The translations under genes and the position numbers were made by a program. Shown in pieces: positions 3,981 through 30,589 of a stretch of 46,587 nt of DNA. Source of the stretch: Verrucomicrobiia bacterium (GTDB lineage Bacteria; Verrucomicrobiota; Verrucomicrobiia; Limisphaerales; DSYF01); NCBI GenBank assembly GCA_035765895.1, contig DASTWL010000056.1, forward strand, positions 1 through 46,587. Reading direction: 5' to 3'. Under the pieces are notes generated by a model, which did not search any database, had not been told where the DNA came from, and worked only from the letters and a program-made list of their open reading frames with translations. The stretch's first letter is position 1; every line of letters begins with the position of its first letter.

Positions 3981-4364
3981 TCAACCACGCCGTCCCTGCG
4001 TCACCGCGAACAACCGCCGTCCGAACTCGTGCGCCAGGGCCGTCATTTCGGCGGCCTCCCGCGCGGGCAGCTGGCGATTGGCGTTGAACTCCCACAAGCT
4101 CAGCCAGTGCTGGAAATGCTCCGGCTGCAAGCTGAGCGCAAGGTGCGCGCCCGCAAATCCGCCGCGATAGCGCGACGGCCCGCCCGTTTGCAGCGCCCAG
4201 AATTCCGTAATCTTGTCGAGATGCGCCGGCCAGTCGGTGATCTGCGCGTTGAACACCGGACCAATGACGGCGTGCTGGCGAACGTCAATGTAGAACGGCT
4301 TGATGAGTTTGAGGATGCCGTCGTGGCCGCCGAGGCGGAAATAAAGTGAAGGCTCTGTTCCCAT
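3981..4364 (-). CDS. Group 3 truncated haemoglobin
   Basis: 127 aa from ATG 4364. The fold is a short 2-on-2 globin: LYFRLGG, then FYIDVRQHAVIGPVFN, W in ITDWPAHLDKITEFW, and the proximal His in GAHLALSLQPEHFQHWL. The AHLAL...HF-WL block is characteristic of group 3 (trHbP/Ctb-like) globins, which bind O2 or NO and are thought to take part in NO/oxygen chemistry. An upstream in-frame ATG at 4418 would overlap the preceding gene by 44 bases, so 4364, 10 bases after that gene's stop, is chosen. It is the last gene of the alaS/unknown/globin run. Confidence 0.88.
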   Translation of the reverse strand: MGTEPSLYFRLGGHDGILKLIKPFYIDVRQHAVIGPVFNAQITDWPAHLDKITEFWALQTGGPSRYRGGFAGAHLALSLQPEHFQHWLSLWEFNANRQLPAREAAEMTALAHEFGRRLFAVTQGRRG

Positions 4365-4374
4365 CGCAGATTGA

Positions 4375-5193
4375 CTACGCCAGTGGAAGATTTGCACCAA
4401 CGCGGGCGGCTGTGTCATGAAATGCCACCAACTCGCTAATCATCGTATGGATTTCACTTTGCCCGAAGTGGCCAAGTTGCCGGCACACGGCAAAGTTTTT
4501 TGACTCCGTCTGGTATTTCGCGTTCCACGCCTTGAACTCTGATTCCGCCTGCGCATCGCGCCACGGCCAGCGAACGCCGGGACTGGTCAGGCCACAGCGC
4601 CATGCCTTGGGCGTGAGCCGGGCGCGAAAGCACTTCTGACTGGCGCACAATTTTCGGTAGAGCGGGTCGGCTTCAAAAGCAGCGAACACCTCAGCGCAAA
4701 CCGGGTCTTCAGGATTGTATGGCTTGTGCGTGGCGACGAGACGGATGCCGGCCCGCGTGCGATAGGCGCGAATTCCCCAGTCAGGATGCGCCGCCACCCA
4801 GCTTCCAACTTTCGCCAGAGTGGATCCCTCAAACCCCGGCGGTTTCTTGCCAAACAAACTCTTGAAGAAACCGCCACGGCTCTGGGGTTCGTCAATATCC
4901 ACGAAGAGCAAATTGGCCACGTTCAACACTTCGCAACCTTGGGTATTGCGCGTGACGGCGGCGATGAGTTCACCGTTCGCAGCGCGAAATTCGCGCAGCA
5001 CTTCCTCCCGCATCGGTCGTCCCGGGTAGTCGTAGGCGGCCTCCGGGCAATCCCTCTCTCCCTTTAACCACGCGATGACTCGATCAACACGTTTAGCACC
5101 CACCGCCAGCGCATCCGTCACCGAAACGTCAGACCAACCCCAAGCAGAGACCTCACCCGATTTGGCAAGCTTCCAGAACTTGGGAAAATGCAT
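4375..5193 (-). CDS. Conserved uncharacterised protein downstream of alaS
   Basis: 272 aa, soluble. Visible blocks: MHFPKFWKLA at the N-terminus; a strand ending in two acidic residues, NLLFVDIDEPQ (about 92-104); a basic glycine-containing segment KSLFGKKPPGFEG; WGIRAYRTRAGIRLVATH (about 138-155); and DPLYRKLCASQKCFRARL followed by TPKAWRCGL (about 175-205). The YRT-AG-R and LC--Q-CFRARLTPK-WRCG blocks look like conserved motifs of a widespread bacterial family, but I know no function for it. The hydrophobic strand ending D-x-D could be a metal site. It starts 8 bases after alaS and ends 10 bases before the globin gene, so it is probably cotranscribed with both. Function left open. Confidence 0.6.
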   Translation of the reverse strand: MHFPKFWKLAKSGEVSAWGWSDVSVTDALAVGAKRVDRVIAWLKGERDCPEAAYDYPGRPMREEVLREFRAANGELIAAVTRNTQGCEVLNVANLLFVDIDEPQSRGGFFKSLFGKKPPGFEGSTLAKVGSWVAAHPDWGIRAYRTRAGIRLVATHKPYNPEDPVCAEVFAAFEADPLYRKLCASQKCFRARLTPKAWRCGLTSPGVRWPWRDAQAESEFKAWNAKYQTESKNFAVCRQLGHFGQSEIHTMISELVAFHDTAARVGANLPLA

Positions 5194-5201
5194 GGCTACT
5201 C

Positions 5202-8369
<3,168 letters not shown>

Positions 8370-8398
8370 CGTTAAATCGTTGGAACGTTAAACCGTTG
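8370..8398. repeat. Two tandem 13-base units just upstream of alaS
   Basis: CGTTAAATCGTTG (8370-8382) and CGTTAAACCGTTG (8386-8398) differ at one base and repeat with a 16-base period, directly before the alaS start codon. They could be a translational leader element or a short tandem repeat. A weakly similar AT-rich string (GTTGAATGGTTAAA, GTTAAATGG) occurs at 45281-45303 after lspA. Confidence 0.5.
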
Positions 8399-8475
8399 CA
8401 TCGTGGCGGCGGTCACCGACAGGCCGTCATGGCCCTGTAAAATCAGGCACGGAGAGTAGGCCAAAGCTGGTCCTT

Positions 8476-8492
8476 AAAGCGAGTTGGAAGTT
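8476..8492 (+). repeat. Direct repeat copy 1, 17 bases
   Basis: AAAGCGAGTTGGAAGTT occurs here and again at 9411-9427, flanking the PrsW-like gene plus the alaS relic. The identity stops at the edges of the 17 bases. Confidence 0.8.
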
Positions 8493-8514
8493 ATCCGGTG
8501 GAGTCCTTTGGCCA

Positions 8515-9222
8515 CTATCTCGCTCCATCAAGAGTTGGGACTCTTCGAGCCGCATATAAGCTCCTGCCGGCAAGCGTCAAGGTTATCAACCCGGCGGCCA
8601 TTCCTGACAGCACTGGCAGGTGCTCGTTGGCACCCGGGGGAATTTCCATCAGTGAGGCGTTCCCGATTGTGTGGAGCGCGGTGGGGACCAGCAGGGCGAA
8701 CGGCCAGGTCCAAAAGCGACTTTGGCCCTGCTGCCACCCCTTCCACGCGAACCACGTCATGATGATGCCCCACGAGCAATGGAAGCAGGCTCCGATTGAA
8801 CGCCCCAGGAGTGTTTTAAGGAGACCTTCGTTGCCCAGCGCACCCAGCATCCCCTCCAAACAAGCGAAGCCGCAATAACTCACCGCCCCCGCAGCCAACC
8901 AGGTGAGGGGTGCAGGCGTCTTTCGCAGAATCCAGATCATCAGCAACGCCACCAGCCCCTTGCCCAACTCTTCGGGAAGTGCCGTTGTGAGAAACTGGCC
9001 GATCAGTTCGTTCAGATAGTAATGCTCGATCAGGCCGGCAATACTTGGCTCGACCCCATTGCCGAGCCGGATTGCGGGCAGCACAACGAGTGCGCCGAGG
9101 AAAAACGCAAGCGTAAACGCCCCCGGCCCAAAGGGCCGTCGACACCAATACCAGACGCCTCCAGCCACGACAACCGGCCCACCGAGCGCGACCAATAACA
9201 TGATGATGGTCTGGGAACTCAT
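8515..9222 (-). CDS. PrsW-family intramembrane protease
   Basis: 235 aa, about seven membrane helices. The catalytic-type motifs of the PrsW/glutamic intramembrane protease group are visible: PEELGKGLVAL with the Glu pair (about 83-93), CGFACLEGMLGAL (second Glu), GACFHCSWGIIMTW with His, and PTALHTIGNAS with a His near the C-terminus. PrsW proteins cut anti-sigma factors or small membrane proteins; the local target is unknown. It starts 10 bases after the stop of an alaS-like 3' relic and lies between two copies of a 17-base repeat. It runs in the same direction as alaS (145 bases apart). Confidence 0.75.
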   Translation of the reverse strand: MSSQTIIMLLVALGGPVVVAGGVWYWCRRPFGPGAFTLAFFLGALVVLPAIRLGNGVEPSIAGLIEHYYLNELIGQFLTTALPEELGKGLVALLMIWILRKTPAPLTWLAAGAVSYCGFACLEGMLGALGNEGLLKTLLGRSIGACFHCSWGIIMTWFAWKGWQQGQSRFWTWPFALLVPTALHTIGNASLMEIPPGANEHLPVLSGMAAGLITLTLAGRSLYAARRVPTLDGAR

Positions 9223-9232
9223 ACCCTTATCA

Positions 9233-9289
9233 CGCCAGCAACTCCCTGGCCTTCGCCAACGCTTTGTTCAGATTGCTGGCAGAGCTGTG
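9233..9289 (-). pseudogene. Relic resembling the 3' end of a second alaS
   Basis: On the minus strand a frame ends ASNLNKALAKARELLA and then TGA. The intact alaS ends ASKLDEALAKAKSLL and then stop. Ten or more of 15 residues match and the DNA has diverged, so this is not a recent duplication. Upstream of about 9290 the resemblance is lost. It sits 10 bases before the PrsW-like gene. Likely the remaining tail of an older alaS copy; a chance match to another coiled-coil end is possible. Confidence 0.45.
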
Positions 9290-9754
9290 ATGATGTCTTA
9301 ATGTGCGCAAAATCAATCTGAGGCAGGGTCGCCAAACGGCGGCGACCGGACGGCGCCGCGCGCCGCTCCTACCGAAAACAGGCGGGAAGCTTGGGCAAAA
9401 GCCCGCCGTAAAAGCGAGTTGGAAGTTTTGGTGCAAAGGCTGCCCGGCGCGAGCGGCTCTGTTTGCATTTGGCGCGGGGCGGTCGTCGTTGAGGGGCCGT
9501 TCGGGTGGTCATTGTCACTGATAGTCTGTGGCCAAATGGGCGCGCGTGGGGTTTGTAGTAGAACGCATGCTGAAGTGCCACGGTCCGAACGACAAACAGG
9601 CTGGCCGAAAGGCGGGTTTCCGTCGAATCTGTGGGCGCGAAGCCCGGCGAAAGCAACCTCAAGTTGTGCCGGCATTGTACCGGGGTGCGGTTTGCCGGAT
9701 TGCGCCGCGCGGACGGGCTTCGGGAAATCGTCCGGGTCTGCCATGGAAAGGAAA
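9290..9754. other. Long leader/intergenic region before the histidine kinase gene
   Basis: No gene is supported. There are two hairpins: GGTCGCC (9327-9333) with GGCGACC (9341-9347), and GGCGGG (9381-9386) with CCCGCC (9402-9407) closed further by GCTT/AAGC. Directly after the second lies copy 2 of the 17-base repeat (9411-9427). The kinase reading frame is open through 9419-9754 but that part reads as Arg/Gly/Ala-rich low-complexity sequence with no domain. A cis-acting RNA leader is possible but I recognise no known class. Confidence 0.4.
9411..9427 (+). repeat. Direct repeat copy 2, 17 bases
   Basis: AAAGCGAGTTGGAAGTT, identical to 8476-8492 and in the same orientation. Confidence 0.8.
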
Positions 9755-28954: not shown

Positions 28955-30589
28955 TCAGCTTTCCCGAAACCGTTGCGCGATGGGAATCCGGCGGCCCACG
29001 CCAAAGGCCTTGCTGGTGACTTTCAGGCCGGGCGCGGCCTGGCGACGTTTGTATTCCGCGCCGTCGATCAGCTTCACCACGCGGCACACGTCGGCCTCGG
29101 CAAAACCGGCCTTCACGATGTCCGCGGGCGACTGGCCGTTGACCACGTAGGCATCAAGAATGGCGTCCAGCACCTCGTAGGGCGGCAGCGAATCCTGATC
29201 CGTCTGGTTTGGGCGCAGTTCGGCCGAGGGTGCCTTCGTGATCGAGGCGCGGGGAATGATTTCGCGTTCGCGGTTGATCCAGCGGGCGAGGCGATAAACC
29301 ATCATCTTCGGCACGTCGCTGATGACGGCGAGCCCGCCGCACATGTCGCCGTAAAGCGTGCAGTAGCCCACCGCCAGTTCGCTTTTGTTGCCCGTGGTCA
29401 GGAGCAGCGAGCCGAACTTGTTCGACATCGCCATGAGCACGACGCCCCGCAGGCGGGCCTGGATGTTCTCCTCGGTGGTGTCCTCGGGACGTCCGGCAAA
29501 GACGCTTTGCAACTGTTCCTTGACGGCAAGGAACGGCGGCTGGATGGGAATGACGTCGTATTGAATGCCGAGGTTCGCCGCGAGCTCGCGCGCGTCGTCC
29601 AGGCTGCCCGGCGAACTGAACTGCGAGGGCAGGGAGATGCCGCGCACGTTTTCCCGGCCCAGCGCGGCGACGGCCAGCGCGGCCACCAGGGCCGAATCAA
29701 TGCCGCCGCTCAGGCCCAGCACCGCCGACTTGAAGCCGCACTTGTGCAGGTAATCGCGCAGCCCGAGCGTGAGGGCTTTGAACAAAATTTCCTCGTCGGA
29801 AATTTGCTCCGGAGCGATTGCGGCGCGGTTCAAATCGAGCATCAACCAATCTTCATCGAACAACTTTCCCTGCGCGATCTGCTGCCCCTTGCCGTTGAAA
29901 GCCAGGCTGCCGCCATCGAAGACAAGCTCGTCGTTTCCGCCTACTTGATTGCAGAACACGACGGGTTTGCCGGACTTTTTGGCGAGGCTTTGCAGCATGG
30001 CGTGTCGCGTGGTGTTTTTGCCAAGCTGCCACGGGGAGGCGGAAATATTGAAGATGATTTCCGCGCCGGCCTCGGCCAGTTCAACCGGCGGATTGTGCTC
30101 GTATCGGCGCACCGGCCAGAAATCTTCGTCGTTCCAGATGTCTTCGCAGATGGTAATGCCGATCTTGCGGCCATTGAATTCCACGGGTGCGTTTGCCTCC
30201 GCGGGCTCAAAATAGCGGTCTTCATCGAAGACGTCGTAAGTCGGCAGCAACGTCTTGGTGCGTAGCGCGGTGATTTTGCCGTTTTGCAGCAACGCCGCCG
30301 CATTCGTGACATCGCGTCCGGGGCGATTCAGGTTGTCGCCGACAAAGCCCACGAGCAAGCCGGTCGCCCCCGTCGCTGCCGCAAGCCGGTTCAGCGCGGC
30401 GAGATTTTGTTCAACCAGACTGCGTCGCAAAACCAGATCGCGCGGTGGATAACCGGTCAACGCCAGTTCCGGCGTCAGCACCAGCTCCGCTCCCGCCGCC
30501 ACGCCGCGTTGATACGCCGCGAGGATTTTTGCCTCGTTGCCCGTGATGTCGCCGACGGTGGTGTTGAGTTGCGCGAGGGCGATCTTCAT
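28955..30589 (-). CDS. nadE: Glutamine-dependent NAD+ synthetase
   Basis: 544 aa, the two-domain form. The N-terminal nitrilase-like glutaminase domain (1 to about 250) has the Glu in LTPELALTGYPPRDL, Lys in RTKTLLPTYDVFDEDRYF and nucleophilic Cys in ITICEDIWND. The C-terminal synthetase domain has the ATP loop LGLSGGIDSALVAALA and the blocks LPSQFSSPGSLDDA, LLLTTGNKSELAVGYCTLYG and TKAPSAELRPNQTDQDSLPP. It amidates nicotinate adenine dinucleotide with glutamine. It overlaps the preceding DUF192 gene by four bases (ATGA). Confidence 0.96.
   Translation of the reverse strand: MKIALAQLNTTVGDITGNEAKILAAYQRGVAAGAELVLTPELALTGYPPRDLVLRRSLVEQNLAALNRLAAATGATGLLVGFVGDNLNRPGRDVTNAAALLQNGKITALRTKTLLPTYDVFDEDRYFEPAEANAPVEFNGRKIGITICEDIWNDEDFWPVRRYEHNPPVELAEAGAEIIFNISASPWQLGKNTTRHAMLQSLAKKSGKPVVFCNQVGGNDELVFDGGSLAFNGKGQQIAQGKLFDEDWLMLDLNRAAIAPEQISDEEILFKALTLGLRDYLHKCGFKSAVLGLSGGIDSALVAALAVAALGRENVRGISLPSQFSSPGSLDDARELAANLGIQYDVIPIQPPFLAVKEQLQSVFAGRPEDTTEENIQARLRGVVLMAMSNKFGSLLLTTGNKSELAVGYCTLYGDMCGGLAVISDVPKMMVYRLARWINREREIIPRASITKAPSAELRPNQTDQDSLPPYEVLDAILDAYVVNGQSPADIVKAGFAEADVCRVVKLIDGAEYKRRQAAPGLKVTSKAFGVGRRIPIAQRFRES

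Follow-up and report, generated by a model that had tools for sequence, protein, structure and literature searches.

Remains of a second alaS gene upstream of the intact alaS in a Limisphaerales genome

Genes and features at the alaS locus

The window analysed here is a 46,587-bp stretch forming one of the 96 contigs (C56) of a 4.64-Mb genome. Along its minus strand lie, in this order, a relic consisting of an alaS leader, head and tail, a gene for a PrsW-family intramembrane protease (8515–9222; PF13367, E = 2.6e-12), an intact alaS leader (8370–8494) and an intact alaS (5202–8369). The intact gene (copy A) encodes a protein of 1055 aa with PF01411, PF07973 and PF02272, ending in ASKLDEALAKAKSLL-stop. 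Upstream of it and of the PrsW gene, the relic (copy B, also on the minus strand) comprises a 5′ leader (9300–9429), the first eight codons of a lost alaS without its start codons (9276–9299), and that gene's final 16 codons with its stop (9230–9280), the reported feature.

A globin gene (3981–4418) is located downstream of alaS and is also found near alaS in G001 (a genome of the same genus and the nearest relative compared), G022, G250, G276, G298 and G260. The globin-alaS neighbourhood is thus an old one.

The relic tail

The minus-strand frame from 9280 to 9230 reads ASNLNKALAKARELLA-stop. At the DNA level, 9249–9280 was 84% identical over 32 nt to 5218–5249, part of the 3′ end of the intact gene (5202–5249) that is the counterpart of the relic tail. 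A 36-nt tail profile was made from the alaS ends of 34 relatives, this genome being left out. It gave 30.8 bits for the relic and 43.3 for the intact end. The next-best place in the window outside alaS reached 14.3, the best place other than an alaS end across 427,820 bp of relatives' loci 21.5, and the maximum over 60 random windows was 22.0. A Pfam search of the 68-aa frame found no family. The original prediction, that this frame resembles the end of AlaS, was therefore confirmed; its coordinates were right, but the relic reaches further upstream, to about 9429.

The relic leader

A 53-nt sequence just upstream of the intact alaS (8440–8492) was repeated with 75% identity at 9375–9427. Its core, the 14-mer AACTTCCAACTCGC, sits just upstream of alaS in G001, G002, G003 and G017 as well. 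Among 146 genomes of the order the 14-mer occurred 22 times, and its reversed control 12 times (summed from columns); seven of the 22 directly preceded an alaS start, counting the two in this genome, and 15 were elsewhere. The idea that the 17-nt repeat stems from a generic promoter or a dispersed repeat was rejected, the motif lying upstream of alaS and being elsewhere at the control level. With a 52-nt profile from four relatives' sequences, the conserved block containing AACTTCCAACTCGC in the copy B leader (9378–9429) scored 48.6 bits, the top of the window, and the intact leader 43.1; the four seeds had been picked for having the 14-mer, so that the score of 48.6 is partly circular.

An unseeded BLAST search of 293 genomes matched the relic leader to the alaS leader of G176, a genome of another family, over 126 nt (75% identity, E = 2.3e-17), and the match ended 4 nt before the G176 alaS ATG. 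In this search, with the relic DNA as the query, the best matches outside its own genome were G176 and then G268 (E = 7e-11), both of them alaS leaders. In leader B, 130 nt separate the motif from the head's GAC; motif and ATG are 122–125 nt apart in copy A, G001 and G017 and 145 nt apart in G003. The spacing in leader B is an alaS spacing. Within the relic leader, 9320–9374 (query 67–121) is a dispersed palindromic repeat that matched many genomes of the order, with only weak matches in this genome. It is present in the same orientation within the alaS leaders of G176 and G268, and was not counted by itself as evidence for alaS. An Rfam search gave nothing above the cut-off.

The relic head and loss of coding capacity

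The relic head reads AAG ACA TCA TCA CAG CTC TGC CAG, and its counterpart in G001 ATG ACC TCA ACT CAG ATC CGC CAG. By a 24-nt head profile from 32 relatives, the relic scored 11.7 bits, the second-best place in the window (third place, 9.7). Such a score is weak alone, chance scores in relatives' loci and random windows exceeding it (up to 19.7 in the latter), and it is the position that carries the assignment. Where G017 and G176 have ATGATGAC in the start region, the relic has ATTAAGAC, indicating that both possible start codons are gone. With its body absent, its start codons changed, and head and tail out of frame, copy B is no longer able to make the enzyme.

The head and tail alignments overlap in GCCAG (9276–9280, minus strand), the deletion junction. 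Since both share this sequence, a single deletion between short repeats accounts for the relic. Deletion at microhomology is a mechanism that we infer, because none of 30 relatives tested has the GCCAG repeat at both ends.

Leader, head and tail as one relic

For leader, head and tail together, the relic reached a summed profile score of 91.1. The intact leader and head came next in the window with 56.9, and 60 random windows gave no score above 11.7. Since leader, head and tail are collinear, 9230–9429 on the minus strand represents a second alaS reduced by internal deletion. What is left of this gene is its leader, roughly eight codons from its beginning and, at its end, 16 codons plus the stop. 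The identification is close to certain. The suggestion that an earlier alaS had stood here and was mostly deleted is thus borne out, with the first eight codons and a full leader now added to the tail. With its short length and its many A, L and K residues, the tail could be taken for a coiled coil that resembles AlaS by chance or convergence, but its score lies well above the 22.0 reached in random windows, a head and leader are in place upstream of it, and the leader match has an E value of 2.3e-17; the collinear leader and head rule this explanation out, and its probability is negligible.

Relics of displaced genes are a known kind; the interest of this one lies in how complete the scar is and in the parallel cases at alaS. 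The literature searches turned up no description of such alaS relics, although this does not prove that none has been published. Replacement of an essential gene is usually inferred from tree conflicts alone, because the loser leaves no trace. Here the loser's control region and its first and last codons remain, and the DNA itself reveals the sequence of events, first doubling and then deletion.

The PrsW gene

With the PrsW protein as the query, only this genome was found to have it, both among 40 genomes and among 320 of the order (the latter at E 0.001). In a sample of the phylum, seven of 386 other genomes gave matches at E ≤ 0.01, the best with 22 bits and 31% identity. Members of PF13367 were present in eight of 58 relatives, this genome counted, and the PrsW query detected none in the fetched alaS loci of relatives. 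As a donor of the gene, no plasmid was found, and no candidate was confirmed in a search of genome contigs. There was no PrsW remnant upstream of copy B or downstream of copy A.

The PrsW ATG lies just past the relic stop. Tentatively, the relic leader could have been kept as a promoter and untranslated leader for PrsW and be a working element today, which would be compatible with its being a deletion relic. This position of the PrsW start, a conserved block scoring at least as high as the intact one, and a stretch between leader B and the PrsW start in which no terminator-like site was called all fit such a role; against it, no sigma-70-type site was called in the leader, and PrsW is without close relatives in which the arrangement could be compared. 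That leader B may drive PrsW is a guess.

Descent of the two copies

Leader kinship scores were 58.5 for B to G176, 42.5 for A to G001 and 26.0 for A to B; part of the match between B and G176 is the dispersed repeat. In a leader tree of low supports, B grouped with G176, G268 and G017 (82/84), and A and B were not paired. Leader A was closest to that of G001. Rows that were short or divided between contigs were excluded from the AlaS trees. In the tree built on 40 of 65 rows, the intact AlaS was sister to that of G086, from another family (99/97), and the AlaS of G001 was sister to that of G029 (99/92). Forcing the AlaS of this genome (G000) and G001 together cost 36.9 log units, with a borderline AU p value of 0.0503, and because of this value the conflict between the AlaS tree and the genome is only suggestive. 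The nearest relative of the intact AlaS also shifted along its length: residues 61–180 were 100% identical to G294 and residues 241–300 were 78% identical.

The protein of 28955–30589 on the same contig, presumably NAD synthetase, was closest to G001 (83%), disfavouring a misbinned contig. The globin downstream of alaS was likewise closest to G001 (80%), yet is not decisive on descent because globin also follows alaS in other families.

Judged from these sequence comparisons, import of the second alaS from another member of the order seems somewhat more probable than a tandem duplication. The kinship of leader A to G001 would fit a native copy A and a foreign copy B, and the body of AlaS would point the opposite way. 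The original prediction had the present alaS either replacing the lost gene or descending from it. Replacement is the better supported of the two, the intact AlaS joining another family and not its own genus, though with the borderline AU result noted above; the nearest kin of the leaders are G001 for A and G176 for B, and not each other. No two intact alaS genes in tandem were found at this locus among the sampled relatives.

How the doubling and loss may have happened

Xenologous displacement is well known for aminoacyl-tRNA synthetase genes. The present case resembles it in that an essential synthetase would have been present twice and one copy lost, and in an apparent conflict between the AlaS tree and taxonomy; unlike the usual case, both ends of the lost copy are still in place. 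We put the whole account, import of a second alaS followed by internal deletion of copy B, at a probability of roughly 0.6. In this lineage, two alaS genes would once have stood one behind the other, and one of the two would have come from a different genome of the order. One end of the incoming DNA probably paired with the resident alaS and the other was joined with short or no homology, as in homology-facilitated illegitimate recombination, and this event could have brought PrsW or left room for it. The redundant copy B would then have lost its body in a single deletion at the GCCAG repeat, and further mutations would have removed its start codons afterwards.

Homology-facilitated illegitimate recombination has one homologous and one non-homologous end (PMC3240628). 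Such an event would leave a complete gene beside a stump; for the present locus it is proposed from the anatomy. At type VI secretion loci of Vibrio cholerae, displaced gene ends and arrays of immunity genes come from successive imports (PMC5361080). The likeness is that a new module comes in and the old gene end is pushed aside as a remnant; the driver there is effector diversity (PMC5361080), and the anchor here is a housekeeping gene.

A tandem duplication of the resident alaS within the lineage, followed by deletion in the upstream copy and arrival of PrsW, would also give two copies with alaS leaders and ends on the same strand. Leaders A and B share CTCGCTTT where G001 and G003 have CTCGCCTA, and vertical descent of the intact AlaS is not firmly rejected by the AU test. 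Such an origin is nevertheless rather unlikely: leaders A and B each have their nearest kin elsewhere, and a simple tandem duplication would leave, between the two copies, a repeat of the stretch preceding B or of that following A, where none was found. The two tails could instead mark an attachment-site duplication, in which the 3′ end of alaS serves as the target of an integrating element, with a second end left on the element's far side. Tail B and tail A do flank PrsW and alaS here, as short repeats, and a tail-cargo-tail arrangement is present at loci L227 and L262, but the leader and start-region codons of the relic would be left unexplained, and PrsW is the sole long reading frame between the alaS copies, which means that no integrase-sized gene lies there. 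We regard this explanation as very improbable.

Second alaS ends at other loci

Besides the import and deletion favoured for the present locus, spare alaS ends were detected in three further genomes of the order. At locus L284 (G187), a decayed alaS head of ~51 codons (1261–1413) is followed by a PAS sensor kinase gene, an intact leader and alaS, and a decayed alaS tail (9277–9351) 2.3 kb past the end of the intact gene. At L227 and L262, the intact alaS is directly followed by an AbiEii-like gene and then by a second, stranded alaS 3′ end with a different terminus, MGAQRLGSGI (from 7550 onward in L227 and from 7450 onward in L262), the two loci being 92% alike there. Second heads or tails were found at three of 80 loci, and in another set at one of 71 above weak hits; the two sets overlap and were judged by different score limits, with a few kilobases of flank searched. 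An apparent second copy at L230 proved to be one alaS read as overlapping pieces, and weak second head or tail matches in G002, G004, G005, G014, G025 and G298 look like chance.

It is conceivable, if doubtful, that the Limisphaerales alaS locus is a recurrent docking point, at which incoming DNA would pair with alaS, drop single cargo genes and leave scars. The cargo would then possibly be PrsW here, the sensor kinase in L284 and the AbiEii-like gene in L227 and L262, with the spare alaS heads and tails as the scars. If true, this would have made AlaS a patchwork across families. The spare ends in the three further genomes suggest that one can search for such scars and count replacements by them.

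Size and inserts of the intact AlaS

Compared with G001, the intact AlaS carries inserts at residues 420–533 and 684–715. Insertions in alaS had been taken as a sign of replacement, a view that was not supported. Open alaS frames of 895–1254 aa are usual in the order (rows uncut by contig ends; cut rows are shorter), and the oversize of AlaS is therefore a separate trait and no evidence for replacement. The longer insert (6771–7112, residues 420–533) is at a hypervariable site where many relatives have other inserts or none. The shorter one (6221–6319, residues 684–715) is an in-frame palindromic insert with arms at 6221–6251 and 6289–6319, and is absent in G001, G086 and G294.
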